Position numbers and translations under genes: made by a program
Assembly (NCBI GenBank): GCA_018653085.1
Contig: JABIAY010000053.1
Span: forward strand, 128,561 to 192,560
Direction of reading: 5' to 3'
Source: Nitrospina sp.
GTDB lineage: Bacteria > Nitrospinota > Nitrospinia > Nitrospinales > VA-1
Length of the DNA: 64,000 bases
Part shown: positions 6,301 through 47,883 of the stretch, in pieces
How positions within the stretch are numbered: position 1 is the first letter of the stretch
Layout: every line of letters begins with the position of its first letter
Notes under the pieces: model-generated
The model's input: the letters and a program-made list of their open reading frames with translations, nothing else
The model's database searches: none
Told to the model about the DNA's origin: nothing

Positions 6301-9099
6301 AACAATGCGCTGACGGTGACCGCCGATGACCTGGTCCTGACTGGAACGATTAATAGCGGTACCGGCTCGACTACCATCAATGTTGCCGACAGCGGTTCTT
6401 TGGGAATCGGCTTCAGTTCCGGATTCGGCATGAACCTCACCAGCACTGAACTGGCAAATATAACGGGTACCGGTGATCTCAATCTGGTGAACGGGGCCAT
6501 CACCTTTGCGGCAAGTTCCAGCTTGAGTTCTTCCGGAAAATTGACCGTAGGCCAAAGCGGCGGAACAATAACCGGGCAAGGGGCCCTGACATTATCCGGC
6601 GCAAAAGGATTGGCCATCGATAGCAGTACCCTCTCAGCGGCAGGAAACTTGACCCTGGAAGGCGACTCCAACAATTCGGCGGACTCGGATGATAGTATTT
6701 CCCTGGCTTCGGGGGCAACGCTCACGGCATCTGCGGGTTCTATCACGTTGAACGCGACCACCGGCGGTATATCGGCGGCGGGGGCAGTGACTCTCAACGC
6801 GACCACTGGCATCACCATCAACGATAGTTTTACATCGGCGGGTACCACAACTTTCGATTCCGATACGGATAATGACGGGTCGGGAACCTTCACCATTGCC
6901 TCCGCATTGAGTGCGGGGAACAATGCTATTTCCCTTACGGTAGGGGGCATGGCCCTCAACAGCACCCTGAGCAGTGGAACCGCGAGCACCACTATTCTGG
7001 CTTCTTTATCGGGAGCTACGATTGGCCTTGGCGCATCCAGTTGTGGAGGGACCTGCGGGGTAAGCCTGACTTCTTCGGGGCTGGGAAATATCACCGCCGG
7101 CAGTCTCATCATCGGTGATGGGTCGAATGGAAATATTACCGTTGAGGGCGTAACAACTTCCATAGCAAACGTGACATTAAACGCGACGGCTTCTGGGTCT
7201 TCGGTGACTTTTGAAAACTCGGACTCTACCTTCCAAGGCCTGACAGTGAATGCGGAAAATGGAGTCACACTTTCTTCGAACCTGACTACCAACGGAACAA
7301 CCAGTTTTGATTCGGATTCGGATGATGACGGCACTGGTGATTTCACTTTGGCGGCAAGCAAAACATTGTCTACTACAAATAATGCTCTATCGCTTACATC
7401 CAACGACATAGCATTTGGTTCGGGTAGCTCGATCACTTCAGGGACTGCGGGCACAACTCTCTTAACTGCTCAATCTGGAGCAACCATTGGTTTGGGTGCC
7501 GGTACAGGAACTTTTTCCATGACAAATAGTGAACTGGGCCAGATCACTTCCGGCAGTCTCACCATTGGTAATACATCGAATGGAGCGATTACTGTTGCAG
7601 GAGTTTCCTCGACCAGCTTTGGAGCACTCACTTTGAACTCCGGCTCCTCGATGACCTTTTCATCCACCGCATCTTCGTTCAGTGGCTTGACCCTGGATGC
7701 CGGGGGAGCGGTGGACTTTGGAGTGGATGTAACGACGACCGGAAATTTGAGCGTCACTTCAGGGGGAACGATTACGGATACGGGGACTTTGACGATAGCG
7801 GGAACATCCAGCTTTACCACTGACGTGGACAATCAAGCGATCACTCTGGACAATACATCGAACGCATTCACGGGCGCAGTGAGCTTGAATACTTTGGGAA
7901 CCTCTGGCAACGCCACGTTGACCAACAATAACGCGGTGACTCTTTCTACCTCCACCGTTGGTGGAGACCTTGCGGTAACGGTGGGCGGAGATAATTCGTT
8001 GAACGTGACGGGTGCCGGGTCGGCTGGTGGTTCTATCAGTCTGCTTGCGGACGATGACATTATTTTTACTGCCGCTGGCGACTTGACCACCACAACCGGA
8101 AATATCACACTTACCGCCGACAACGATTCTGACAATAACGGATCGGGTGGAGCTCTGACCATGGTAGATGGAACGGTGTTTGACGCAGGGTCTGGAACCT
8201 TGGCCCTGTCCGCCGATGAAGACATCACTCTCGGCCTGCTTGAGACCACAAGTTCTTCAGACACCGCTGTGACACTGACTTCAACCAGCGGCGGGGTGTT
8301 TGATGGAGACGCCAATGCGTCTTTCAGTAATACCACGATAATTGTTGGGAGTGCGTCCGATTCGGTTCTTGATATTATTGCGGAAAGCGGCAGGCTGGTG
8401 GTGGATACGGTGACCGGATTTGGGACAGAAGATAATGCCATGGAGACAAAAGTCAGCTCTGTGGATATCGACAACACCACATCGGGCGATATCAATATCT
8501 TTGAATTTGACGGTATCGAAATTTCTAAAATTGCCCAGGCCGGGTCGGGCGATATTATAGTTTCTTACCAGGGTTCTATTTCCGGATCCGGCAACGCGGA
8601 GATTACTTTTAGCGGCACTCCCAAGGGAACCACCAAGTTCATCCGCCGTGATGTCAAGGATCTGGTCATAGGAGGAACCGGAAAAACCCTGGGCGAGCTT
8701 GCCTTTGGTACCACACAACAGCTTACTTTCGATACCTTTGAAATTAAGGCTCCCGACTTTCAGGGCAAGACACCGGTAGACCTTGTTGCCGGGTCCCCCA
8801 ATGGGCCCTTTACCATGGATGTCTTCAGTGAGAGTTTTGCGCTGGTTGAGCTGGCGGAAGGAAGCTCTGGAAAATTTGATGGAATGGAAGTGACTCAGTC
8901 TTTCTGGGGTGGCCCAAGCAATACCAGCCTGGAAGTGGCGCAAAAGAAAAACCCGGAGAAAAAATCCCGTTCCCGGCAGAGATCGGCTAAAAGGAAAAAA
9001 CTGAACAAGAAAAAGGTGGATGAAACCGCCGCTCTTACTCTGAAAAAACCGCGCCGCATCCAGAGGAGTGAATCGGGCTATCTTGACTTTGTTCGTTAA
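3310..9099 (+). CDS. TpsA filamentous haemagglutinin-like secreted adhesin
   Basis: This 1,929-residue secreted beta-helix protein is the cargo of the preceding TpsB. After the signal segment (about 62-80, ending SMVYA) comes the TPS secretion domain with typical motifs, including LWLINPNGVLFG. The body is Ser/Thr/Gly/Ala-rich and repetitive. It includes a composite module seen three times (Asp-rich DxDxDGSG loop, then an IGLG...SNG unit) at about 6232-6510, 6853-7160 and 7308-7617. The C-terminus is strongly basic (KKNPEKKSRSRQRS onward) and lacks an obvious toxin or autotransporter barrel. The ATG at 3310 has AGGA 7 nt upstream. Residues about 10-60 derive from an inserted repeat-like block, so the signal peptide lies unusually deep. 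An alternative start at 3475 would give a normal signal peptide but lacks a ribosome-binding site. Confidence 0.88.
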   Translation: MNVFKMNQKAFPGGKPPQAGVAAGGSVTPKRQPKAWSPFTPSGHESLGKISRSPGMARRPSDAAIFLVSFLTYLIGIFPSMVYALPTGGTVQAGSATIDSTSSQLMTIYQTTDKAIIDWQAFGIGSTEQVDFQLSQGGVTLNRVTGNDPSNIFGRLTSNGDLWLINPNGVLFGNSAQVDVHGLIATTSDISNTNFMSSNYNFSTPSSLTSTVVNHGSITAAQGGLVALVAPGVQNMGVITARLGKVSLASGKTFTVDLYGDQLINLGVDSQVMGQVTGGGGQVLTSLVSNSGSIFADGGVVRLDVNAAQNIVDRVINMDGIIQARSVVEKNGQIILMGGAAGEVSVTGTLDASGYGQDETGGTVHVLGEMLRFEGNGLIDVSGDLGGGTLLFGGDYQGQGSVFTATDSYIGPDTQTFADAVTSGNGGKVIFWADRRMRFFGIVRGRGGKYFGDGGLVEVSGKEELYFDGSVDTTAANGKTGTLLLDPDTITIADGSGTTTASGASTFTTIYEDTLEAVSSTTNITLLATSSILLSDLSDNLLNLQQGSGNSVTFTVTAGTISFASSTDTISTNGGDITFSATGDLTIGSLTSNGGNISLTGDDFSLSGTLSSGAGNISITHADSGKIGLGGTSCTGSCDLSINTTELGNMSGNKLIIGGSTNGDIYVDGITQTTSTFSNGVELNVDAHLSGSKGAIIFEGSASSFSTLDASAVDGVEVNANLTTTTGALTLDGDSDNAVDTLSGNDYIIFASGITLTSAGNISLSATNGGMTAAGALTLSATSGLTMTGAMTGAGAVALTANSGITLNSSVSTSSGSLNINANSSALSLGSVTLSSAGALTLSSSSISSSGNLALTSTGSTISVGSAVTSSGSVAMTASSGLTLSNSTLTGSGSVSLEGGSALTLASGTTITSSAGSITLGASTGSITANGALTLSSNGSITVSNTMTTAGAATFNANSGITLATNVTTNGATVMDADLDNNGSGDFTISSGSLSTTNNALTVTADDLVLTGTINSGTGSTTINVADSGSLGIGFSSGFGMNLTSTELANITGTGDLNLVNGAITFAASSSLSSSGKLTVGQSGGTITGQGALTLSGAKGLAIDSSTLSAAGNLTLEGDSNNSADSDDSISLASGATLTASAGSITLNATTGGISAAGAVTLNATTGITINDSFTSAGTTTFDSDTDNDGSGTFTIASALSAGNNAISLTVGGMALNSTLSSGTASTTILASLSGATIGLGASSCGGTCGVSLTSSGLGNITAGSLIIGDGSNGNITVEGVTTSIANVTLNATASGSSVTFENSDSTFQGLTVNAENGVTLSSNLTTNGTTSFDSDSDDDGTGDFTLAASKTLSTTNNALSLTSNDIAFGSGSSITSGTAGTTLLTAQSGATIGLGAGTGTFSMTNSELGQITSGSLTIGNTSNGAITVAGVSSTSFGALTLNSGSSMTFSSTASSFSGLTLDAGGAVDFGVDVTTTGNLSVTSGGTITDTGTLTIAGTSSFTTDVDNQAITLDNTSNAFTGAVSLNTLGTSGNATLTNNNAVTLSTSTVGGDLAVTVGGDNSLNVTGAGSAGGSISLLADDDIIFTAAGDLTTTTGNITLTADNDSDNNGSGGALTMVDGTVFDAGSGTLALSADEDITLGLLETTSSSDTAVTLTSTSGGVFDGDANASFSNTTIIVGSASDSVLDIIAESGRLVVDTVTGFGTEDNAMETKVSSVDIDNTTSGDINIFEFDGIEISKIAQAGSGDIIVSYQGSISGSGNAEITFSGTPKGTTKFIRRDVKDLVIGGTGKTLGELAFGTTQQLTFDTFEIKAPDFQGKTPVDLVAGSPNGPFTMDVFSESFALVELAEGSSGKFDGMEVTQSFWGGPSNTSLEVAQKKNPEKKSRSRQRSAKRKKLNKKKVDETAALTLKKPRRIQRSESGYLDFVR
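3337..3500. repeat. dispersed-repeat-like block embedded in the tpsA 5' coding region
   Basis: This GC-rich stretch resembles the intergenic repeats elsewhere in the window. It has a GGCGTAGCCGC segment like the reverse complement of the repeat end at 35000-35015. It has CGAAGGCTTGGAGCC, similar to CGAAGGCGTGGAGCC at 9243-9257. It also has a GGGGCACGAGAGCTTAGG segment mirroring 12495-12515 in reverse. The palindrome CCGGGCATGGCCCGG lies at 3469-3483. The reading frame stays open through it, adding about 50 Pro/Gly/Arg-rich residues ahead of the signal peptide. Confidence 0.65.
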
Positions 9100-9280
9100 C
9101 CAGCGTGACGCTGGACTCTACTGGCAATAGCATTGTCAGGCTGGCAAAAGTTATCTCGGCTTAATGAAGTCTTGCTCTCTGCTTCCCTCGCCAGAGGGCC
9201 ACTAGCCGTGGTGGCAAAGAGGTGGTGGTGCTAAGCGACCGCCGAAGGCGTGGAGCCTGTTGAGTCCAGCGTCACGCTGG
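9100..9280. mobile_element. 181-bp element with 19-bp terminal inverted repeats (MITE-like)
   Basis: The left end (9100-9118, CCAGCGTGACGCTGGACTC) and right end (9262-9280) are perfect 19-bp inverted repeats, each itself containing a CCAGCG/CGCTGG hairpin. The element starts immediately after the tpsA stop codon (TAA at 9097-9099). At its other end it supplies the TGA stop of the minus-strand gene at 9272-10123. Internal sequence carries no ORF of note. It shares pieces with repeats at 21.8, 34.9 and 54.8 kb. It could be a non-autonomous transposon or a large REP-type composite. Confidence 0.6.
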
Positions 9281-10123
9281 CGCGGCTAGTGGGTGGTTTG
9301 TTAAATATTCCGCATCGATGATACTCAGCCTGCCGTATTGCGGGTCCTCCACATACTCTTTATATATTCCGTCAAACTGGTTACCGGTTTCAGGACTGCT
9401 TTTTAATTCGAGGAACCGGGTTTCAACCGAGTCGCGTCTGAGCAGTTTGAGAGTGGCATCATCGAGTTTAAACGGAGGCTCCAGTTTTTCCAGCGCGACC
9501 AGAGGTTCCACCCCTTCCGCTATGATGTCCTTAATCTCTTCCTCCAATAAATTTTTTCTTTCCTGATGGCGGGCATGAGGGTAATCGGCCTGAGAGAAAA
9601 CCATGAAATCCAGATCGAACCAGTAATTGTTAATGAAGTCATCAAAGTTCACTTCAACCGCGTTGCTCAAATGAATATCCCGGGAGTTACCGGGGTCGTC
9701 CCGAATCAAGCTGTTATAGACCTGGATGATATTGTGGGCGGAGTCGTAGAGTACGGGCCAGTGATAGGCGTTGGCCGATTCGTGAGTGCGAAAGGAGTCC
9801 ATCGCCTTAACCAGCGTAACCAGCGTGAAATGCATATCTTCCATTTTCAGGAATGCGGATGTCCAGGGGAATCGGTTTTTATACCATTGCTCGACATCAG
9901 ACGGGTATTCCTGCCTCGAAGAGTCTGCTGGAGGCCGGTAATCGTTGTCGATAAAATTCATGATGTCATCGATTTCCTTGTAGGCCAGGTCCAGTCCAGC
10001 CCGCACCACCGTGTAGGGAAACAGCTTGCGCTGGTATTCCATATACTGTTTCAATTCCGGAAGCTTGTCTTCCAATTCGTGGCGGTGGTCTCTTTGACCA
10101 ATATCTTTAGCGAATATCAACAT
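9272..10123 (-). CDS. hypothetical protein, 283 aa
   Basis: I do not recognise this family. The protein is soluble, rich in acidic and aromatic residues and probably mostly helical, with no signal peptide or membrane segment. A Glu/Leu/Lys-rich stretch at about 195-245 looks helical or coiled. It begins 7 nt after the stop of the 150-residue gene (10131-10583), so the two probably form an operon. The last residues (about HPLAAPA) and the stop lie inside the repeat element at 9100-9280 and adjoining repeat sequence. The native C-terminus may therefore have been altered by insertion. Confidence 0.65.
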   Translation of the reverse strand: MLIFAKDIGQRDHRHELEDKLPELKQYMEYQRKLFPYTVVRAGLDLAYKEIDDIMNFIDNDYRPPADSSRQEYPSDVEQWYKNRFPWTSAFLKMEDMHFTLVTLVKAMDSFRTHESANAYHWPVLYDSAHNIIQVYNSLIRDDPGNSRDIHLSNAVEVNFDDFINNYWFDLDFMVFSQADYPHARHQERKNLLEEEIKDIIAEGVEPLVALEKLEPPFKLDDATLKLLRRDSVETRFLELKSSPETGNQFDGIYKEYVEDPQYGRLSIIDAEYLTNHPLAAPA

Positions 10124-34927: not shown

Positions 34928-35020
34928 CTTTACTTGGCGAACAAAGAGTTGCCTCGGCTCAATCAAGTTATCGCTCTCTGGGTCCAGCATCACGCTGGCT
35001 AGTGGCGGCTACGCTGGTAC
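34928..35020. repeat. dispersed repeat copy between dinG-like gene and CDP-alcohol transferase gene
   Basis: The segment TTGGCGAACAAAGAGTTGCC (34935-34954) matches the repeat core at 21.8 and 46.7 kb. Then come GGTCCAGCATCACGCTGG, as in the 9.1-kb terminal inverted repeat, and GCTAGTGGCGGCTACGCTGG. The TAG stop of the minus-strand gene (34999-36117) falls in CCACTAG of this repeat. Confidence 0.65.
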
Positions 35021-36117
35021 ATCAGGTAGACGGCAAATATATTGGACCCGACTGCGGCGAGAAGTATGAATATATCGAGTCTTTCGATACAAGCCATCAC
35101 CAGCAGGAAGTAGATGAAGTCCCGGTTGGCAAGCTGGTCTGTCAGGTTGGCTTCGGATGTTTCCCCTCGCCCTGCCTCCTGCTTTTTTTTCACGATGACG
35201 CCGCTCAGGATCATAAACGCGGTCAGACTGCCAAAAACTGCCAGTGCTCCGTAAAGTTTATACAGAGGATTACCCGTTGCGAAAAACAAACCCATGCCAA
35301 TGGAAAAAAATACAAAAAAGTGAACAATGTTGTCGCAGAAGATGTCGAACCGTGCGCCCCAGGGTGTTTCCATAAATTTAAGCCGCGCAATTTCTCCATC
35401 GGTGCAATCTACCCAGGCGGAGACCAGAAGGAGGAGCGCACCGCTTATGCCTGAAAAAAAGGTGCCCTGATAAAAAAACCATGCCGAGCCAAGACCGAGC
35501 AACAGGCTCAGAAAAGTAATCTGGTTAGGGGTCAAGGAGGTTTTTAAAAACAGGCGGGTCAATTGTCTGGAAATGAACCGCGTTACCAGTCTGTCCATCA
35601 GGCTGTCATTGCTCAGGCCCCCGGATTTTAAAAGCCGCTCTTCGGCCACAGGAAAATCTTCTTTGTTGATCAAACGCGATGGCTCATGGGGTGGAATGAT
35701 TTTTATAAGATTCGTTTCTTGTGCCTGTTGTTTGAGTGCATCGGGAAAGAAACGAAATCCGGAGGTATCGGCTTGATGTTGGGTAGATAGAGTCATCGCC
35801 GCCACGATTTCTGATTTCACCAGCAAGGTGGATCCATCGAGAACCATGACTTGCGTGTCGTGAAGTGCTAGGGTGTTGTCCCATTCCACATCCAGGTTCA
35901 TGCGCGGATCCTGCTTGAGCTTCTGGTAGCTGACATCCTTGTCTTCGCTCCAGACTATCAGTTTTTTTATGCCTGCTCCTTGCAGGGTGAGTGCGTTCCT
36001 CAGCAGGAAGGGGACTTCCGCCAGGTTTTGCCAATACCAGTCGGGTTCTGCTGGCAGTAATAAAACGGCAGTTTGAATTTTAGCATTGGTCTGGGATGGA
36101 GAGCCGTTTTCATTCAT
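34999..36117 (-). CDS. CDP-alcohol phosphatidyltransferase with N-terminal nucleotidyltransferase-like domain (copy 2)
   Basis: This is 372 residues. The C-terminal half is a multi-helix membrane enzyme with the intact CDP-alcohol phosphotransferase motif DGxxARx8Gx3Dx3D (DGEIARLK...GARFDIFCD). The N-terminal half (about 12-150) resembles a degenerate sugar-nucleotidyltransferase fold. The order recalls bifunctional inositol-phosphate cytidylyltransferase / di-inositol-phosphate synthases. Residues 1-150 lack a clear GxGxR signature, so the nucleotidyl activity may be lost. ATG 36117 is 13 nt after the stop of its paralogue; an earlier in-frame start (36216) would overlap that gene by 86 nt and is not favoured. 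The last residues are read from repeat sequence. Confidence 0.82.
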   Translation of the reverse strand: MNENGSPSQTNAKIQTAVLLLPAEPDWYWQNLAEVPFLLRNALTLQGAGIKKLIVWSEDKDVSYQKLKQDPRMNLDVEWDNTLALHDTQVMVLDGSTLLVKSEIVAAMTLSTQHQADTSGFRFFPDALKQQAQETNLIKIIPPHEPSRLINKEDFPVAEERLLKSGGLSNDSLMDRLVTRFISRQLTRLFLKTSLTPNQITFLSLLLGLGSAWFFYQGTFFSGISGALLLLVSAWVDCTDGEIARLKFMETPWGARFDIFCDNIVHFFVFFSIGMGLFFATGNPLYKLYGALAVFGSLTAFMILSGVIVKKKQEAGRGETSEANLTDQLANRDFIYFLLVMACIERLDIFILLAAVGSNIFAVYLMYQRSRH

Positions 36118-36130
36118 AAGGTGAAAACCA

Positions 36131-37363
36131 TTAGGAATCTGAAACTGCCGTTTTAATGGTCTGGCGTCTGGCGAGAAAAAGAGCCAGGGCAAAGGTGAGG
36201 GAGCCAACGCCAGCAAGCCAGAGAAACCAATTCAGATGTCCGCCTATGGAGAAAAGTAAAATGACATATATAAAATTTCGGCTTGCCAGAGTCTGGATGA
36301 CATCATACATCTCGGAGTGCCGGAAAAAATTTCCCTTGCCGCCTTCGGGAAAATAGATAAAGGCAAAAATCATTCCGCCGCCAACAGCCAGCATGGTAAA
36401 GGGGGTGAGGGCCTGCACCCAGCCATGGGTTTGCGAGACACCCAGCATCATTCCTGTGAAGGCAAAAACATTGACGAGATTGTCGCAGATGGTGTCGAGT
36501 TTCTCGCCAAAATCAGATTCGATGAGTTTCAGCCGCGCGACATCTCCATCACAGCAATCCCAGATGGCTGTCAAGACCAGCAATATACCTCCTGCGAGAC
36601 CGCTGAGATAATCCCCCTGCGCGAAACACCAGCCCGACAAGAAACCTATGAACAAGCCGAACAGGCTCAGCACATTAGGTGTGAGGGGAGTTTTAACCAG
36701 CGCGGCGGATATATGGCGGGAAAATAAAGAATTGACCCATATATCCATAAACTGATGGTAATGGTGTTTATTATAACGAAGCAGTTTCTTTTCGGCTTCC
36801 AGAGCAGAGGCGTTGTCCCGGACTTCTATGTAGAAATTGGTGTCGGCGGGCAATGCAATGCGCTCGACTTTATCTTCGTCCTCTTCGGCTCCGTTGCGAT
36901 GACTCAATGTGGAAAATTTAGTTGGAGGAAGCAGATACAATCCGCCAGGTTTGTCCAGTGCCAGACAGAAAATTCCAGCGGGATTATTATTGTCCTCGGA
37001 CTCCATGAAACGCTTGACCACCTTCTGGTGCGTGACGAGGTTTCCGTTTACCAGTAAAAACGGCTGGGATGGAGTGAGCGAGTTGGCGCGCTCCTTGTTG
37101 TTCTCTTCAAAAAATTCGGTGCGGTCATGCCAGTGCAGAAGGCTTTTAAATCGGGAATCCTTTTCGATATCTTTTCGATGGACTTTTATTTCCCGCTCAT
37201 CCAACTGCTGGGATAAAACCAGAAACTCCTTGATGCCCGCCCTTTGCAAAGTGAGGATCAAGCGTTTAAACACAGGAACGCCTGCCACTTTGTTTTCGAG
37301 GATAAGGGGGTACCCGTTATCAGGTGGAGAAAGTAAAATGATCGCAAGATGGGGAGAATTCAT
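36131..37363 (-). CDS. CDP-alcohol phosphatidyltransferase with N-terminal nucleotidyltransferase-like domain (copy 1)
   Basis: This 410-residue paralogue of the next gene has the same two-part layout. The N-terminal region (about 1-185) has NTP-transferase-like strands (AGVPVFKRLILTLQRAGI, then a Val/Asn/Gly strand). The C-terminal membrane domain carries DGDVARLK...GEKLDTICD, fitting DGxxARx8Gx3Dx3D. The likely reaction is transfer of a phosphoalcohol from CDP onto another alcohol, giving a phospholipid head group or a polyol phosphodiester. Tandem paralogues suggest two successive or alternative transfers. It lies 12 nt downstream of the TonB-like gene, implying one operon. Confidence 0.83.
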   Translation of the reverse strand: MNSPHLAIILLSPPDNGYPLILENKVAGVPVFKRLILTLQRAGIKEFLVLSQQLDEREIKVHRKDIEKDSRFKSLLHWHDRTEFFEENNKERANSLTPSQPFLLVNGNLVTHQKVVKRFMESEDNNNPAGIFCLALDKPGGLYLLPPTKFSTLSHRNGAEEDEDKVERIALPADTNFYIEVRDNASALEAEKKLLRYNKHHYHQFMDIWVNSLFSRHISAALVKTPLTPNVLSLFGLFIGFLSGWCFAQGDYLSGLAGGILLVLTAIWDCCDGDVARLKLIESDFGEKLDTICDNLVNVFAFTGMMLGVSQTHGWVQALTPFTMLAVGGGMIFAFIYFPEGGKGNFFRHSEMYDVIQTLASRNFIYVILLFSIGGHLNWFLWLAGVGSLTFALALFLARRQTIKTAVSDS

Positions 37364-37375
37364 GATGACGAAAAA

Positions 37376-38329
37376 TCAGGGGGCAACGGTTTCAAGGTTA
37401 GGAGTATAAATGAAATTAGCCTGGATGGTTAATTTGTCTCGCTGAATGGTTGCCGGGAAGGGATAAAAAGGAGCCGCCTCCTTCACGGCTTTGAGTGCGG
37501 CCATATCCAGAATTTCATAACCCGACCGATCCAGCAGACGCGCTCCAAGAAGGTTCCCGTCCCTGGAAATACTGAAAGTTAGATTGAGATCGCCGCTGAT
37601 ACCACGTTTTGCCGCGTCCGAAGGATAAATCCAGACTCGTTCGATCTGGTGTTTGATTCTGGCAAAATAAGAGGCGTACTTGACTTCCGTAGTATCGAGA
37701 GAAACCGGCTCATCGTCATCGGTATTTTCAAGAGCATTCGTATCGATTGATGCGAATTTTTCAGGGTCAAACCCATCCAGCAGGGCCAGAACACTGCCTG
37801 TTCCCGCTTTGGGGTCGGATGCTGAGGCTGTGGTTTTTTTTCGGGTAACGGTTTTCATTTTTCCAATATCCGATTCCGGGAAGGACCTTTTTTTTGGCTC
37901 AACTACGGACCGCGTTTTTGGTTTGCGTGCGATTTTCTTTTCTCGAACGGGTGCGGTCCCTGTTTTGCCTACTGACCCTTTGGATTTTGGCACCACGGTT
38001 TTTTTTCGCTGATAGGTTTTTGCAGGTTTTTTATTGGTGTTGGAATGAGCTCGACTGTCGAATTTTGCCAGCAAATCTTTGGTCCTGGCTTTTTCGGTCT
38101 TTTGGGGTGGCTTCGGTGTGTCGATGATGCGACCACTTTTGGCGGCCATGGTTTTTTTCGGTTCGATATACTTTACCTGGATAGGGGGAGGCCCCTTTAT
38201 TTTTTCCTGCCGGGCAGGGGTCACCATATGCGCGATCACCACTATAAAATGAATGGCCAGCGATAAAAGGATAAACCCGGATAATCGGGTTCGATTCAAC
38301 AAACTATTTTCCAGCCACATATTTGGCAT
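37376..38329 (-). CDS. TonB-like energy transducer
   Basis: This 317-residue protein has one N-terminal membrane helix (about 16-37). A long Lys/Pro/Thr-rich periplasmic linker (about 45-200) follows, then a C-terminal TonB-like domain (about 218-310: YFARIKHQIERVWIYPSDA..., then SGYEILDMAALKAVKEAAPFYPFP). It would couple inner-membrane proton motive force to an outer-membrane receptor or act in envelope integrity (TolA-like alternative). No ExbB/ExbD or receptor gene is adjacent. Its placement 12 nt ahead of the CDP-alcohol transferase pair is unusual. Confidence 0.85.
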   Translation of the reverse strand: MPNMWLENSLLNRTRLSGFILLSLAIHFIVVIAHMVTPARQEKIKGPPPIQVKYIEPKKTMAAKSGRIIDTPKPPQKTEKARTKDLLAKFDSRAHSNTNKKPAKTYQRKKTVVPKSKGSVGKTGTAPVREKKIARKPKTRSVVEPKKRSFPESDIGKMKTVTRKKTTASASDPKAGTGSVLALLDGFDPEKFASIDTNALENTDDDEPVSLDTTEVKYASYFARIKHQIERVWIYPSDAAKRGISGDLNLTFSISRDGNLLGARLLDRSGYEILDMAALKAVKEAAPFYPFPATIQRDKLTIQANFIYTPNLETVAP

Positions 38330-39987: not shown

Positions 39988-41604
39988 ATGGGAGACCAAA
40001 CCCATATCGTAGAGTTGATCGATCAGGTTTTAAATGAAACGCAGGATCGACCCCAATTGCAGGAAAAGGTGCTGGATCTCAGGGACGCTCTGTTCCAGGC
40101 CCAGCAGTCTGCCCAGCAGTATGCGCTTAAAATTAAGGTTTTAGAGGAAGCCATTGAAAAATTAAAGTCTCCTGCCCACCGTATTGGCACGATCCTGGGC
40201 CAGGGCGAGGAAGGCTTGGTTCGTCTGGTCTCCGGAGGCACGGAATATCAGGCGGCGGTTGTTCCAGAACTGGTGGAAAATGAGGGGTTAAAAACAGGGG
40301 ATCAGGTAGCACTGAATGAGGGGTTTGTAGTGATTGCCCGATTATTGCTTCCCAATCAGGGACCATTGGCAAAAATTTCCGCGAAGCTTGCCGGTGGGCA
40401 ATGGTTGGTGCAGGCGGCGACCGGCAACACGGAAACCATTGTTCTGGTCCGCGACGGTTTGGATGAAGCCAGCCTGAAAGAGGGAACAGAAATTTTTCTC
40501 GACACCAGCCAAAGAGTTGTTTTGGGTAAACTTCCTGAACGGGAGTCCCGCACTCTTATTGAAGACGATTACGAACAGGTGGAGTGGTCCGAAGTGGGAG
40601 GGCAGGAAAAAGTAAAAGAAGAGGTTCGCAAAGTTTTAGAATATCCGCTCCTGCATCAGGAAATCCTGAGCCAGATGGAATATCAAGTGCCCAAGGGGTT
40701 TTTGTTTTATGGTCCCCCGGGTTGCGGCAAAACTCTCATTGGCAAAGCGATTCTCACGGAAGTGATTCGCAAGCTTTCCGAGGAGGAAGAATCCGAACTG
40801 CAAGGTCGATTCATTTATGTGAAAGGGCCGGAGATCCTCAATATGTGGTTGGGTGAATCGGAGCGTAAAATCCGTGAAATTTTTAAAAAGGCCCGGGACT
40901 ATAAAGAAAAGGGCCAGATCCCTTTTATATTTATAGATGAAGCGGAGTCCATTTTAGGAACCCGGCAGGCTTGGCGTGGGTCTAACATCAGTAACACGGT
41001 GGTTCCCATGTTTTGCGCGGAGATGGATGGCATTCAATCCCTTCGCGAAACAGTGGTGATTCTGGCGACCAACCGGCCCGACCTGATCGACCCGGCTATT
41101 ATCCGGCCCGGCAGAATTGACAGAAAGATAAAAGTATCGCGTCCCAACCGCGAAGAGTGCAAAGCCATCCTGCGTGTTTATCTGAAAGACGGGCTTCCCC
41201 GCGAACATGAAGATTTTAATTCCATGGCCGAACCATTTCTGGATCGCCTCTTTAGCCAAGGCCCCGATCAGGAAGTGCTGGTACTGACTTTGCGAAGTGG
41301 CGGCAATCGCAAAATGTACTGGAAGGATTTTATTTCCGGCGCGGCCATTGAGGGAATCATGAAACGCACCAAGGAAAGGGCCATCGAACGGGCCATTCGG
41401 GGTGAAACACTGTGCCTGACGGTGGACGATCTTGTAGTTTCTCTTGAGACCGAATTTCAGGAAGGCAGTCTGCTTCCCGCTGAATCGAACCTGGAAGACT
41501 GGCTTCAGCTTTTGGATATGGAATCAAAAAATGTTGTGCGGGTACGGCGGCCGAACGAATCGGATAAGGCGACCGAAAACACGATGCGTCGGTCAATTAT
41601 ATGA
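39988..41604 (+). CDS. mpa: proteasomal AAA+ ATPase (ARC/Mpa)
   Basis: This hexameric unfoldase recognises modifier-tagged proteins and feeds them to the 20S proteasome. The 538-residue protein has an N-terminal coiled coil (about 20-62) that in Mpa binds Pup. Two OB-type domains follow (about 63-185), then an AAA+ domain with Walker A GPPGCGKT at 242-249, Walker B with Asp317-Glu318 (FIFIDEAE) and the arginine-finger region RPGRID. It ends RRSII, lacking the C-terminal penultimate Tyr of actinobacterial Mpa (GQYL), so docking to the core must differ. It heads the operon and overlaps dop by ATGA. Confidence 0.94.
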   Translation: MGDQTHIVELIDQVLNETQDRPQLQEKVLDLRDALFQAQQSAQQYALKIKVLEEAIEKLKSPAHRIGTILGQGEEGLVRLVSGGTEYQAAVVPELVENEGLKTGDQVALNEGFVVIARLLLPNQGPLAKISAKLAGGQWLVQAATGNTETIVLVRDGLDEASLKEGTEIFLDTSQRVVLGKLPERESRTLIEDDYEQVEWSEVGGQEKVKEEVRKVLEYPLLHQEILSQMEYQVPKGFLFYGPPGCGKTLIGKAILTEVIRKLSEEEESELQGRFIYVKGPEILNMWLGESERKIREIFKKARDYKEKGQIPFIFIDEAESILGTRQAWRGSNISNTVVPMFCAEMDGIQSLRETVVILATNRPDLIDPAIIRPGRIDRKIKVSRPNREECKAILRVYLKDGLPREHEDFNSMAEPFLDRLFSQGPDQEVLVLTLRSGGNRKMYWKDFISGAAIEGIMKRTKERAIERAIRGETLCLTVDDLVVSLETEFQEGSLLPAESNLEDWLQLLDMESKNVVRVRRPNESDKATENTMRRSII

Positions 41605-43055
41605 GTGTTCCTCTTTTAGGTTTAGAGACCGAGTATGGAATTGTCCGGGAAGACCTGGAAAATTCTGACCCGGTCGAAGAGTCGATGAAGCTGTTGCAGG
41701 CTTGCGAGCGCAAAAGTGTTTTCTGCAAATGGGCTTATTCGCAGGAAAACTCGCATCTGGATATGCGTGGGTTCCGGGTGACCTCTTTGGCTCAGGATGA
41801 GGAAGAGGATGCCTTTTGCGCCGAAGATCGTAAAAGGTCTTACTCCTATCTGGATATGAAGTGCGACCGGGTTTTGACAAACGGTGCCCGTTTTTATAAT
41901 GATCATACTCATCCTGAATACAGTACTCCGGAATGCAACTCGGTATTATCTCTGGTAGCGCATGATGTGGCAGGGGAAAGGATTGTCGCCGAATGCGTGG
42001 CCATCCGTAACCGGGAACTGGGGGGCAACTCACTTCAGGTATTCAAAAATAATACGGACTACAGCGGCCACAGTTATGGCACGCATGATAACTACCTCAT
42101 CCCACGGGAAACGCCATTTGAGGATGTGGTAAACGGATTGGCCCCTTTTCTGGTGACGCGCCAGTTGTATGCCGGAGCCGGAAAAGTGGGATCAGAAAAC
42201 GCCGATGATTTTCAGGGTTTGCAGTTGGCTCAGCGGTCTGATTTTATTGAAACGCTTTTAAGCATTGAGACCATGACGAAGCGTCCCCTCATCAATACCC
42301 GGGACGAGCCGCATGCGGTGAGTAGCCGATATCGGCGTTTGCATTTGATTCTCGGCGATGCCAACATGTCCGCCTACGCCACGGCCTTGAAGGTGGGGAG
42401 CACCGTTCTGGTTCTTAACTTGATCGCCAGTGGAGAGAAGCTTGCCGATTTGGAATTGGCGGATCCGGTTGCCGATGTGTTGCGGGTATCTCTCGATAGA
42501 ACCACGGCTTTACAGCGTAAAACAGGCGGGACCATCACGGCTCTTGAAATTCAGGAAGCTTATGTGGAGGCGGCAGAAAAAGCCTTTGCCGGAAAAAACC
42601 GGGAGTGGGACTGGATTCTTGCGGAATGGAAGCGGACCCTGGATGAACTTAGACACAGTCCGGAAAAACTTTCCGACCGTATTGACTGGGCAATTAAGGA
42701 AAAGTTGTTTACCGAGTTCATGCAGTCGGAAGGCATCGGCTGGGAGGACCCCTGGCTAAAGAGCCTGGATTTGGAATACCATAACCTGGACCCCGAGCGC
42801 GGATTGTATCTGGGGTTACAGCAGGAGGGAGCGGTTCATTCGCTACTCAATGAAAAAGAAATCGCCCGTGCTATGGAGTCGCCTCCCGATGGAACCCGTG
42901 CGAAGATAAGAGGCCAAGCGGTGGCGCAAGATGCGGAGAATATAAAAAGTATTCATTGGACTGGAGTTGAGTTTGCAAGCGGAGAGCTTTTGGATTTGAC
43001 CGGAGTTATCTGCCCCGAAGAGGTTGAAAGTATTCTCAACGAACAATTCGTTTAA
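41601..43055 (+). CDS. dop: Dop, deamidase/depupylase of the prokaryotic ubiquitin-like modifier
   Basis: Dop converts the C-terminal Gln of the modifier to Glu and removes the modifier from substrates. The 484-residue protein is a glutamine-synthetase-like fold with GLETEYG at 7-13. Dop is told from PafA by the segment GARFYNDHTHPEYSTPE, in which Asp101 corresponds to the catalytic Asp of Dop. Also typical are NTRDEPHA and the C-terminal WEDPWLKSLDLEYHNLDPERGLY. It fits the modifier in this operon, which ends in Gln and so needs deamidation. The start overlaps the mpa stop (ATGA). Confidence 0.93.
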   Translation: MSVPLLGLETEYGIVREDLENSDPVEESMKLLQACERKSVFCKWAYSQENSHLDMRGFRVTSLAQDEEEDAFCAEDRKRSYSYLDMKCDRVLTNGARFYNDHTHPEYSTPECNSVLSLVAHDVAGERIVAECVAIRNRELGGNSLQVFKNNTDYSGHSYGTHDNYLIPRETPFEDVVNGLAPFLVTRQLYAGAGKVGSENADDFQGLQLAQRSDFIETLLSIETMTKRPLINTRDEPHAVSSRYRRLHLILGDANMSAYATALKVGSTVLVLNLIASGEKLADLELADPVADVLRVSLDRTTALQRKTGGTITALEIQEAYVEAAEKAFAGKNREWDWILAEWKRTLDELRHSPEKLSDRIDWAIKEKLFTEFMQSEGIGWEDPWLKSLDLEYHNLDPERGLYLGLQQEGAVHSLLNEKEIARAMESPPDGTRAKIRGQAVAQDAENIKSIHWTGVEFASGELLDLTGVICPEEVESILNEQFV

Positions 43056-43077: not shown

Positions 43078-43812
43078 ATGTTTGAAGAACCATATCGCTG
43101 GATGGAAGCGGTTTCCACCCGCCACAGTTATGTTCAGGAAAAGCTGAAATTAGGTCAGCCGGTGTTGTCGGTTCCTTTTGATGAAGGGGTGCTGGTTATG
43201 GGGTTTTCTCCCCAGCCGGGTAAGGTGTTCGAAATTTATGACCGCATTGCTTTGGGCGGTGTGGGGCACCCTGCTGATGTGGAACGCTTGCGCATGACCC
43301 TTCTGGAGATGGCGCATTTGGAGGGTTTCAACCGCTCGGCCCAGGATGTCACTTTGGCAAGACTCCTGCAGTTTGGTATTGCCCCGGCACTCAAACAGAA
43401 TTTTGAAGAAATCCAACGGGCACCCTATATTATTCGTCTCCTGCTTGCCGAACTGGACCACGACTGCAATCCAACCTTTTTCCGTATAAATTATGACGGA
43501 CATTGGGAAACTTTTAAAAGCGGAACGGTTATCGCTGGTAATGAAAAAGTCATGGATTGGATTCAGCAGGAAATCCAGAATCTTCCCTTTGCGACGTTTA
43601 CGCTCGACAAGGCTTTAGAGGAAGTCTGCCGACTTTGGGTTGAAAGCAAAAAACAGCAAGAGGAGGAAAAAGATTTTCCTCAGACCTTGAAAGAGGCTTT
43701 TGATCAATGGGTGCTTGAGGGTGCCGTGCTATTGGGGAAAGTGGAACGAAGAGCTATTTACAGGGCCCTCACTAAGGAAGAGATTGAAAAATTAAAATCA
43801 TCGGTCGGTTAA
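43078..43812 (+). CDS. prcA: 20S proteasome alpha subunit
   Basis: This 244-residue protein sits where prcA is expected, between dop and the modifier/beta genes. It shows a divergent alpha-subunit pattern: an N-terminal H0-like helix (WMEAVSTRHSYVQEKLKL), VPFDEGVLVMGFSP, then EIYDRIALGGVGHPADVERLR. It lacks the N-terminal Thr nucleophile, as alpha subunits do. Alpha rings gate the chamber and dock the ATPase. GAGGAAA lies upstream of the ATG. The C-terminus carries a charged extension (KKQQEEEKDFP) that may be flexible. Confidence rests partly on operon position. Confidence 0.88.
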   Translation: MFEEPYRWMEAVSTRHSYVQEKLKLGQPVLSVPFDEGVLVMGFSPQPGKVFEIYDRIALGGVGHPADVERLRMTLLEMAHLEGFNRSAQDVTLARLLQFGIAPALKQNFEEIQRAPYIIRLLLAELDHDCNPTFFRINYDGHWETFKSGTVIAGNEKVMDWIQQEIQNLPFATFTLDKALEEVCRLWVESKKQQEEEKDFPQTLKEAFDQWVLEGAVLLGKVERRAIYRALTKEEIEKLKSSVG

Positions 43813-43866: not shown

Positions 43867-44043
43867 ATGCAAATGAATGATCCCCTGAGAAAAGAAGAAA
43901 AAAAAGAATCCAGTCCAGATCGCCATGATTCCGGCCCTTCCAGTCCGGAGCCTTCACGGCCGGGCAGGGATAATCTTTTAAAGCGGATGAAAAAAGTGGA
44001 CCCGAAGCAAACGGAAAAATACAAACAGAGAACCGGTCAATGA
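43867..44043 (+). CDS. Pup/UBact-type ubiquitin-like protein modifier, 58 aa
   Basis: This short gene encodes MQMNDPLRKEEKKESS, an acidic/Pro/Ser-rich disordered middle, and a C-terminus ending DNLLKRMKKVDPKQ...QRTGQ. That tail, with R-T-G-Q at the end, fits UBact, the Pup-like modifier described in Gram-negative bacteria, rather than actinobacterial Pup, which ends GGQ or GGE. The terminal Gln must be deamidated by Dop before PafA links it to substrate lysines. AAGGAG lies 8 nt upstream of the ATG. The stop overlaps the prcB start (ATGA). No globular domain is expected; binding to the ATPase coiled coil would fold a helix from the middle/C-terminal part. Confidence 0.92.
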   Translation: MQMNDPLRKEEKKESSPDRHDSGPSSPEPSRPGRDNLLKRMKKVDPKQTEKYKQRTGQ

Positions 44044-44837
44044 GCTTTCAATCTGATTCTAAAGGTTCGCCCGGAGATTTTTTCGATCTCCTGGAAAGAT
44101 CCGGCTATCGCTGGCAGGCTCGAATTGATCCTGCGCAGACGCAAAAAGATTTTGCAGTGACCCAGGGCACAACGGTTCTCGCGTTCCACTTTGAGGGTGG
44201 AGTGATTGTTGCCGGTGACCGGCGGGCAACGGCTGGTAACAGTATCATGTATGAGCATTGCGACAAGGTCATTCCCATCGATGATTATTCGTTGATGGCT
44301 ATTGCCGGAGTTCCCGCTACGGCATTCGAGATGGCCCGGATTCTCACGCACAACTTTGAGTTCTTCCGGCGTTCGCAAATGCAGTCCATGAGCGGGGAGG
44401 GGAAAATTCGCGCCTTGTCAAGACTGCTGAAAGAGAATGTGAGCATGGCGGTCCAGGGGCTGGGGGGAGTGAGTCCGATATTTGCGACCTACGATTTGCG
44501 GGCTCGAAAACCTTCTATACATTTTTACGATATGCTCGGGGCAGATTTTCAGATTCGCACTCATACCGCAACCGGGTCCGGCTCGCCGACCATTCGGGGA
44601 ATTCTGGAACATGAAGACCTTTGGGGAGAGAAGCCTTTGGCGCAAAGGCCGGAAAGCAGTGCGGTCACCCTTGCCATCCGACTTTTACAAACTGCGGCGC
44701 AGTTTGATTCCGCAACGGGTAAAGCCCGTCCGGAGGATAAAATTTTTCCCACCATAGCAATAATTACCGAGGCGGGGTATCGGTTTATGAACGATCAGGA
44801 ACTGGCAGATATTTGCAAGACCTCTCTCCAACGTTAA
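44040..44837 (+). CDS. prcB: 20S proteasome beta subunit (catalytic)
   Basis: This 265-residue precursor is an N-terminal nucleophile hydrolase. A propeptide of 43 residues is expected to be cut at Gly43-Thr44 (TQGTTVLAF), exposing Thr44 as the catalytic Thr1. The conserved GDRRATAGN and DKVIPID segments supply the Asp17 and Lys33 equivalents. TATGSGSP gives the later active-site region. Length fits beta subunits with a propeptide. Overlap with the modifier gene (ATGA) implies coupled translation. Confidence 0.94.
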   Translation: MSFQSDSKGSPGDFFDLLERSGYRWQARIDPAQTQKDFAVTQGTTVLAFHFEGGVIVAGDRRATAGNSIMYEHCDKVIPIDDYSLMAIAGVPATAFEMARILTHNFEFFRRSQMQSMSGEGKIRALSRLLKENVSMAVQGLGGVSPIFATYDLRARKPSIHFYDMLGADFQIRTHTATGSGSPTIRGILEHEDLWGEKPLAQRPESSAVTLAIRLLQTAAQFDSATGKARPEDKIFPTIAIITEAGYRFMNDQELADICKTSLQR

Positions 44838-44856: not shown

Positions 44857-46359
44857 ATGAAACAACGCATCTTCGGCATCGAAACGGAATATGGCCTCCT
44901 GGTAAAAGGTGATGGGGACTTTTCTTACGATCCCATGGAAATTGCCAACAAGGTCAAGAACCATGTTTTTTCAAAAAACCTGGGTGTGCTGGACCTTCAC
45001 TATCGGGCCAACGATGAGCCTCCTGGTAATGGCGGGTTCCTGCTTAACGGTGGGCGCCTGTATTTGGATATGGGCCATTTGGAATATGCCTCGCCGGAAT
45101 GCTCCAACCTTGTGGACCTGGTGACTTATGACCGTGCCGGGGATACGTTGATCCAGGAAGCGGTGGAAGAACTGGGCTGGGCCGATCATGTCTCGTTCAT
45201 CAAGAACAATGTGGACCTTGAAACCAATGCGACTTTTGGATGCCACGAGAATTATCTGGTAGGCAGGGGATTCCCTTTCGATGAGCGGGACAACCTGAAA
45301 CTGCTCTCTTCATTCTTAACCACCCGGTTGATTTATTGTGGCGCCGGCAGAATTGGTTCCTGTGATCCCCACCCGTTTCGGGATTGGGAGAACGTTGCGC
45401 CTGATGAAAAGCATGGCGATGAGGTGAACTTTCAGATTTCACAAAGGGCCGATCACATCCCTAATGAGTTTTACCGGTGGGTGCAATATAACAGGGCGAT
45501 TGTCAACACCCGCGATGAACCCTTGGCGGACCCTAGCAAGTACCGGCGCATTCATCTTCTGGTTGGTGACTCCACCATGAGTGAGTTCGCGACTGCCATG
45601 AAAATGGGGACGACAACTCTCATGCTGGAAATCATGCAGTTGGGGGTCGCCAAACGGGAATGGATTCTTGCAGACTCGGTTCAGTCTATGCGGTCCATTT
45701 CCCGCGATCCGGATTTCAAGTGGCATGTGAAACTGGCTTCGGGAAATTCTTCCACTGCCCTGGAACTGCAATGGGATACTTTGAATACCTGCAAGAAATA
45801 TCTGGCTGGAACGGATCGAGAGACGGACTGGATTCTGGAAGGTTGGGAATCGGTCTTGACCGATTTACCGAAGGGACCGGAAGCGGTGATCGGCAGAGTG
45901 GACTGGGCCAGCAAATACTGGATGCTGAACGAGTTCAGAAACGAAGAAAATCTGGAATGGAACGACCCCTGGCTCAAAAGTCTGGACTTGGAGTACCACA
46001 ATCTGAACAAGGAAACCGGCCTGTTCTGGGGACTGGAGGCTAATGGAGACGGTTACAGGAAAACCACTGATGAGGCGGTCGAATTCTCAAAGGTAAATCC
46101 TCCAAGAGGAACCCGGGCACATGGCAGGGGGGAGCTCGTTAAAAAGCTTATGAGCCAGCATGCTCACATGGGTTATCTCATAGACTGGATTGGCTTTCGC
46201 CTGAGTAAAACCGATGAACCGTTTCTGATGCTCGATCCGTTTATCTCCTATAAAGAAGAAATCATTGAGCATCTTGACCAGTTTGTGCCACAGCAGGAAA
46301 CTGAACAGGGCAAGGGTATGGAAAACCAAAGAGGACAAGGAAAAAAATCTTATGAGTGA
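44857..46359 (+). CDS. pafA: PafA, ligase for the Pup/UBact modifier
   Basis: PafA uses ATP to form an isopeptide bond between the modifier C-terminal Glu and a substrate Lys. The 500-residue glutamine-synthetase-like protein has GIETEYG at 7-13. The segment GGRLYLDMGHLEYASPEC contains Asp71, matching the catalytic Asp of PafA rather than Dop. Later come NTRDEPLADPSKYRR and WNDPWLKSLDLEYHNL. It is paralogous to dop in the same operon. The C-terminus has an extra Gln/Gly/Lys-rich tail (about 480-500). Its last 8 bases overlap the HIT gene. Confidence 0.93.
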   Translation: MKQRIFGIETEYGLLVKGDGDFSYDPMEIANKVKNHVFSKNLGVLDLHYRANDEPPGNGGFLLNGGRLYLDMGHLEYASPECSNLVDLVTYDRAGDTLIQEAVEELGWADHVSFIKNNVDLETNATFGCHENYLVGRGFPFDERDNLKLLSSFLTTRLIYCGAGRIGSCDPHPFRDWENVAPDEKHGDEVNFQISQRADHIPNEFYRWVQYNRAIVNTRDEPLADPSKYRRIHLLVGDSTMSEFATAMKMGTTTLMLEIMQLGVAKREWILADSVQSMRSISRDPDFKWHVKLASGNSSTALELQWDTLNTCKKYLAGTDRETDWILEGWESVLTDLPKGPEAVIGRVDWASKYWMLNEFRNEENLEWNDPWLKSLDLEYHNLNKETGLFWGLEANGDGYRKTTDEAVEFSKVNPPRGTRAHGRGELVKKLMSQHAHMGYLIDWIGFRLSKTDEPFLMLDPFISYKEEIIEHLDQFVPQQETEQGKGMENQRGQGKKSYE

Positions 46360-46696
46360 TTGCCTGTTTTGTAAAATCAGCGAGGGCAGTATTCCTTCCG
46401 ATAAGGTTTATGAATCGGACACGTTGTTCGCGATTAATGATGTTAACCCGCAGGCCCCAACGCATATTCTGATTATTCCCCGAATCCATCAAGGCACTTT
46501 GCTGGATGTCGAGGAAAAGGACCATGGGCTGATGGGTTCGGTGATCAGTGTGGCGAATCAACTGGCTAAGGAAAGAGGACTTGATAAATCAGGGTTCCGG
46601 CTGGTGGTCAACTGTGGGGCAGGGGCCGGACAGTCGGTGTTTCATATTCATTATCATCTTTTAGGCGGCCGAGCCATGAACTGGCCGCCGGGCTAA
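46352..46696 (+). CDS. HIT (histidine triad) family protein, HinT-like
   Basis: This 114-residue nucleotide-binding hydrolase of the histidine-triad family has HxHxH at His98/100/102 (FHIHYHLLGG) and CxxC at Cys4/Cys7, as in zinc-containing HinT proteins. Length is typical of HinT, which cleaves adenosine phosphoramidates and aminoacyl-AMP. ATG 46352 overlaps the pafA stop region by 8 nt and starts the conserved N-terminus (MSDCLFCKI), so it is translationally coupled to the proteasome operon. An upstream in-frame start inside pafA is unlikely. TAA is followed directly by a repeat copy. Confidence 0.92.
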   Translation: MSDCLFCKISEGSIPSDKVYESDTLFAINDVNPQAPTHILIIPRIHQGTLLDVEEKDHGLMGSVISVANQLAKERGLDKSGFRLVVNCGAGAGQSVFHIHYHLLGGRAMNWPPG

Positions 46697-46869: not shown

Positions 46870-47883
46870 ATGATTACCGCAGAAAAATTATACGAAAAGC
46901 TTAAAGACATTCAGGTGGGCAATCCGGTTTGCCGGTTTACCCAGGAACATTGTGAGCTGTTGCTTCCTACCATAAGAAGGATTGAAGAGCTCAAGCGCGA
47001 AAAGAATGCCATCATCCTCGTGCATAATTATGTCGCGCCGCAAATTTTTTATAGTGTCGCCGACTACACTGGCGACTCTTATGGTTTGTCGAAAAAAGCG
47101 AAAGAATCCGATGCCGATGTCATCGTTTTTTCGGCGGTTCGCTTTATGGCGGAGACCGCCAAGATTCTCAATCCTGGAAAAGTAGTGCTGGACCCCAACC
47201 CCGATGGCGGTTGTTCCCTGGCTGATGGCATAACGGCAAAGGATGTTATCCGACTACGCAAAGAATTTCCCGATCACACATTCGTCTGTTATATCAACAC
47301 GACTGCCGAGGTGAAAGCCCAGTGTGATGTGTGCGTTACCTCTTCGAATGTTTATGCCATTATTGAAAAAATTCCGAATGACAGGATTTATTTTTTGCCC
47401 GACAGGCTCATGGGTGAAAACGTGATCAAGCATCTTGAAGCCCGGGGAGTGAACAAGGATATCCAGCTCTGGGATGGTGCCTGCTACGTTCATGAGGAGT
47501 ACCAGCCGGAAAGCATAGACCAGGTGCGACGAAACTTTGAGGGCGTCGAGATTCTTGTACATCCTGAGTGTCGCTCTTCTGTGGTGGACAAGGCTGATTA
47601 TGTAGGAAGTACCAGCCAAATGCTTGATCACGTGCGTGAATCGAAGCGAGACTCCTTCTTTCTGCTTACCGAATGCGGCCTGACTGGTGTTCTGCAATCC
47701 GAATTTCCGGAAAAAACATTTGCAGGAAGCTGTACACTTTGCAAATATATGAAGTTCAACTCATTGGAAGATATATTAAGCGTGCTTGAGAACCCGAGTC
47801 CGCGTAGCATCGTTGAGATCGACCTGGAGACTCAGAAGCGTGCCCTTCAATGTGTTGAGCGCATGTTTCATTACACCAGCTAA
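46870..47883 (+). CDS. nadA: quinolinate synthase
   Basis: NadA condenses iminoaspartate with dihydroxyacetone phosphate to quinolinate in de novo NAD synthesis, using a [4Fe-4S] cluster. The 337-residue length fits the family. Typical segments are LVHNYVAPQIF, VADYTGDSYGLS, FMAETAKILNP, NPDGGCSLAD, TSSNVYAI, PDRLMGENV, VHPECR and the C-terminal GSCTLCKYMKFN. Conserved cysteines for the cluster are present. GGGA lies 6-7 nt before the ATG. The PAS-GGDEF gene begins 3 nt after its stop. No nadB or nadC is adjacent. Confidence 0.94.
   Translation: MITAEKLYEKLKDIQVGNPVCRFTQEHCELLLPTIRRIEELKREKNAIILVHNYVAPQIFYSVADYTGDSYGLSKKAKESDADVIVFSAVRFMAETAKILNPGKVVLDPNPDGGCSLADGITAKDVIRLRKEFPDHTFVCYINTTAEVKAQCDVCVTSSNVYAIIEKIPNDRIYFLPDRLMGENVIKHLEARGVNKDIQLWDGACYVHEEYQPESIDQVRRNFEGVEILVHPECRSSVVDKADYVGSTSQMLDHVRESKRDSFFLLTECGLTGVLQSEFPEKTFAGSCTLCKYMKFNSLEDILSVLENPSPRSIVEIDLETQKRALQCVERMFHYTS

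Follow-up and report, generated by a model that had tools for sequence, protein, structure and literature searches.

Work on bacterial proteasomes has dealt mostly with Actinobacteria. The stretch of DNA analysed here (the window, 64,000 nucleotides of a 3.16 Mb draft genome) comes from Nitrospinota, a group of marine nitrite oxidisers, and it carries a very short reading frame between the genes for two proteasome subunits. The question is whether this frame encodes a protein modifier, and whether the genes around it form a system that could attach it to proteins and degrade them. UBact of Gram-negative bacteria was reportedly described by Lehmann et al. in 2017, and we consider it about 90% probable that a Nitrospina-like bacterium here encodes a UBact conjugation-proteasome operon.

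The modifier gene and its partners

The first-pass annotation had proposed a 58-codon gene between the alpha and beta genes, with the segment LLKRMKKVDPKQ and a C-terminal R-T-G-Q, inside a complete set ordered ATPase, Dop, alpha, modifier, beta, PafA. The frame is present, its translation contains the segment and ends in KQRTGQ, and profile matches recover all the partners in that order:

39988-41604, forward strand: proteasomal AAA ATPase (Mpa/ARC-like); Pfam AAA and Prot_ATP_ID_OB_N/C; Mpa chains 7px9/5kwa
41601-43055, forward strand: Dop-like deamidase/depupylase; TIGR03688, 431 bits; Dop-loop; motif YNDHTHPEYSTPE
43078-43812, forward strand: divergent proteasome alpha subunit; Pfam Proteasome, 28.4 bits; pocket Lys49 and Asp140
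43867-44043, forward strand: UBact modifier gene; 58 aa, basic, RTGQ end; PF20513 and NF033388 matches, purifying selection
44040-44837, forward strand: proteasome beta subunit with propeptide; TIGR03690, 161 bits, and Pfam Proteasome
44857-46359, forward strand: PafA-like UBact ligase; Pup_ligase, 425 bits; no Dop-loop; motif YLDMGHLEYASPE

The proposed UBact identity held up in profile searches, in which both curated cut-offs were far exceeded: the product scored 68.8 bits (E = 3.4e-19) against Pfam UBact PF20513 (cut-off 27.8 bits) and 69.2 bits (E = 2.6e-19) against the NCBIfam UBact equivalog NF033388 (cut-off 35 bits). Among the Pfam and NCBIfam profiles, searched at E up to 1, only the UBact models matched and no Pup model did; a PDB sequence search with the UBact query returned chance matches only. 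The protein has the R-T-G-[QE] end of UBact, in which R, T and G are nearly invariant in a 31-row alignment, and its TGQ differs from the GG[QE] end of Pup. The gene adjoins 20S subunit genes and is accompanied by Dop and PafA homologues, as is characteristic of UBact. A Shine-Dalgarno-like AAGGAG lies 5' of the frame, whose stop shares 4 bases (ATGA) with the start of beta. By profile, ending and setting, the modifier is identified as a true UBact, and its operon is complete and conserved; the UBact family itself had already been described.

The acidic middle ascribed to the protein at first was not found: residues 17-34 hold 3 D/E against 4 K/R/H, and the pI is 9.8 for the whole protein and 9.4-11.3 in 73 relatives. 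AlphaFold gave low confidence to the N-terminal half and placed helices at 34-42 and 46-56, a predicted layout that may be likened in outline to a Pup-like disordered tag. Among 13 Nitrospina-clade relatives, pS at UBact codons (0.24-0.94) greatly exceeds pN (0.03-0.12), indicating that the gene is under purifying selection. The frame had been expected to persist in close relatives, and it lies directly 5' of beta wherever sequence covers the spot.

The ATPase has an N-terminal coiled-coil-like region followed by OB domains and the AAA domain, matches the Mpa chains over nearly their full length and ends in MRRSII. The Dop gene, whose start overlaps the ATPase gene end by 4 bases, encodes a protein that matches Dop 4b0r over its full length and PafA only partially, while the window PafA matches PafA 4b0t over its full length, C-terminal domain included. 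A small Dop/PafA tree places the window Dop with 4b0r and the window PafA on the 4b0t side (SH-aLRT 91). Two fixed motifs are spaced 81 residues apart in Dop (the Dop-loop) and 51 in PafA, and the catalytic Asp, ETEY, KNN and YRR motifs are intact in both proteins. UBact-type PafA has the motif D-M-G-H-[LI]-E, and the Ser insertion of Corynebacterium PafA is missing. In beta the catalytic T1, D17 and K33 are residues 44, 60 and 76, and T44, D60 and K76 are invariant in 75 homologues. Alpha is the weakest partner by sequence, at 28.4 bits against a Pfam cut-off of 22.4; its identity is confirmed by the predicted fold (AlphaFold pLDDT 86; Foldseek to the Mtb proteasome E 1e-15, TM 0.84). Pfam profiles detect all five partners, but their scores stay under the NCBIfam equivalog cut-offs (for the ATPase, 372 bits against the 505 of its best match, TIGR03689 pup_AAA), and function is therefore not transferred automatically. 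These cut-offs appear to have been set on actinobacterial proteins.

Host, inheritance and the terminal residue

A TonB protein gene just upstream of the operon (37376-38329) and an Omp85 protein gene elsewhere on the contig bear out the diderm host that was first suggested. The closest PafA genes elsewhere, at 82-91% identity, belong for the most part to metagenome genomes of Nitrospina and Nitrospinaceae, and a Nitrospina-like diderm host is thus supported. Further upstream, 34999-37363 (minus strand) encodes, side by side, two CDP-alcohol phosphatidyltransferase proteins that resemble each other and have long N-terminal regions. Downstream, a HIT-family gene (46352-46696) overlaps the pafA end and a NadA gene (46870-47883) follows; this pair comes after PafA in most Nitrospinota loci and not in other phyla. 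Promoter and terminator scans gave signals near the shuffle level.

Of 77 Nitrospinota genomes, 58 have UBact together with PF03136 (PafA/Dop) and 60 have PF03136; the two genomes with PF03136 only have partial PafA/Dop matches and are 87% and 70% complete. Both are missing from all 13 Nitrospinota genomes outside the window's order (0/13). This distribution indicates that the UBact system is inherited as a unit within that order. The same gene set was also found in loci of Nitrospirota, Latescibacterota, Gemmatimonadota, Poribacteria and Verrucomicrobiota. One Latescibacterota locus (L104, 5743-6233) has two neighbouring UBact-like genes, ending RTGE and RDGGVN. An apparent second UBact copy in G041 was rejected: contig ends divide a single gene there.

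In theory a Gln end requires Dop, and the first-pass annotation took the terminal Gln to match the presence of Dop. Every Gln-end locus with enough upstream DNA (53) does have Dop, but so do 28 loci whose UBact ends in Glu; since Dop accompanies both, Gln does not predict it. Eleven loci have no Dop in view, 10 of them with less than 2.5 kb upstream; in the eleventh, L078, about 100 bases inside UBact are masked, and upstream Dop and ATPase do not register.

Gene order and the extra beta gene

The order Dop-UBact-beta-alpha was seen in 51 loci, in 46 of which the ATPase gene is also in view. The window's order, Dop-alpha-UBact-beta-PafA, is confined to one clade of the beta tree (21 rows, SH-aLRT 99), which comprises the genus of the window and its sister. 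Genomes of that sister genus can carry an additional beta gene, beta', between Dop and alpha; it is intact in G061, G062 and G064, broken in G060 and G066 and absent from the others. The intact copies lie at L043 5343-6131, L117 4662-5453 and L122 4821-5609 (minus strand of L122), and the gene is in pieces in L116 and L121. Beta' shares about 50% identity with the main beta. It has T1, D17 and K33, but RRIMAG takes the place of the RRATAG found in the main betas (75/75).

We infer that Dop-alpha-UBact-beta was derived by rearrangement from Dop-UBact-beta-alpha. On the simplest account a UBact-beta(-alpha) segment would have been duplicated: beta was probably copied locally, probably with UBact and perhaps with alpha too, and the window's order would have been left once the upstream copies disappeared. 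The beta' branch is long and its placement in the beta tree uncertain, and the duplication could therefore predate the rearrangement.

Locus L070 (Nitrospinota, 6989-9425) has alpha and PafA alone in 17 kb, and in genome G045 the UBact-system gene set is split over two contigs (C15, C21); the operon can be broken apart. In L069 (8001-9712, genome G059) a frame change near residue 62-90 breaks the PafA frame, through either sequencing error or decay.

Proposed mechanism and comparison with known systems

The genes, family memberships, catalytic residues, co-inheritance and selection established above permit a mechanism to be proposed by homology, and all of its reactions, like the degradation fate (targeted degradation included), are put here as what the system would do. 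Dop would convert the Gln at the UBact C-terminus to Glu by deamidation; PafA, with ATP, would activate the Glu gamma-carboxylate and then join UBact to substrate lysines, and Dop may be able to undo the UBact-lysine linkage. The C-terminal helical half of UBact would be gripped either by the enzymes or by the coiled coil of the ATPase, and the disordered N-terminal half would initiate translocation. The ATPase would dock on the alpha ring via its aliphatic C-terminal tail and thread the substrate towards beta and its Thr1 sites. The literature searched held no proteomic or biochemical support for UBact conjugation in the Nitrospina lineage. A search of the genome for Bpa gave no match, and the control of that search likewise gave none.

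The tagging enzymes might instead work with the tag mainly regulating or storing proteins, the proteasome being largely independent of it. Some Actinobacteria retain pupylation without proteasome genes (PMC8223512), and L070 and G045 indicate that strict linkage is not needed. However, in nearly all other adequately covered loci the modifier directly adjoins beta and the full proteasome set is present, and the beta catalytic residues are invariant, all of which makes this alternative improbable. That the short frame is decaying or a chance one, and the operon uses another modifier, we reject: so small a gene can readily escape notice, but it matches two curated models at E values of ~1e-19, is conserved in several phyla at a constant position beside beta and shows low nonsynonymous change, which leaves this explanation next to no credence.

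Returning to the operon as a UBact conjugation-proteasome system, the docking step can be compared with Mpa, which ends in GQYL and in which Tyr608 touches alpha Arg26 or Glu119 while the carboxylate can bridge Lys52 (PMC9599533). The window ATPase (RSII) does not have the penultimate Tyr of an HbYX or GQYL tail. In all 60 complete ATPases from UBact loci the last two residues are aliphatic (59 I/V/L pairs and one Met-Ile). Among 32 aligned alphas, the equivalents of Mtb Lys52 (K49) and Asp144 (D140) are each present in all, and the Glu119 position is I or L in all. The column aligned to Arg26 varies, its neighbour being mostly K/R, and the placement of the Arg26 equivalent is uncertain. This pattern suggests carboxylate-plus-aliphatic docking of the ATPase on the alpha ring. 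As a tentative proposal, at slightly under even odds, UBact proteasomes would have their own docking code, with a Tyr-free aliphatic tail entering this alpha pocket, and the Nitrospina clade would have passed through a two-beta stage. Neither was found in the literature searched, a scope that did not take in the original UBact paper. The Tyr-free tail and the rearranged order with a relict beta' in sister genomes are features that a specialist might not expect, and the tail and pocket differences are open to direct test. Two recent bacterial-proteasome reviews that were searched do not mention systems of the Nitrospina or Nitrospira type, and an intact, co-inherited UBact system in one Nitrospinota order offers a place to study targeted degradation in diderms.

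With the Gram-negative UBact systems, for which PMC12751074 cites Lehmann et al. 2017 (BBRC 483:946) as ref. 7, the window shares the R-T-G-Q/E end, the PF20513/NF033388 modifier, and ATPase, Dop, alpha, beta and PafA; most UBact loci analysed, however, read Dop-UBact-beta-alpha-PafA, whereas the window operon reads Dop-alpha-UBact-beta-PafA. The Mycobacterium Pup-proteasome system has homologous ATPase, Dop, PafA and 20S subunits, and its Pup, like the window UBact, is short, largely disordered and ends in Gln or Glu. The window modifier ends in RTGQ and its ATPase in SII, against the actinobacterial GGQ of Pup and GQYL, and the UBact-type alpha pocket has I/L in place of Mtb Glu119. The actinobacterial order dop-pup-prcB-prcA-pafA has been termed rigidly conserved (PMC3511204); 51 UBact loci also follow it, and the window operon departs from it.
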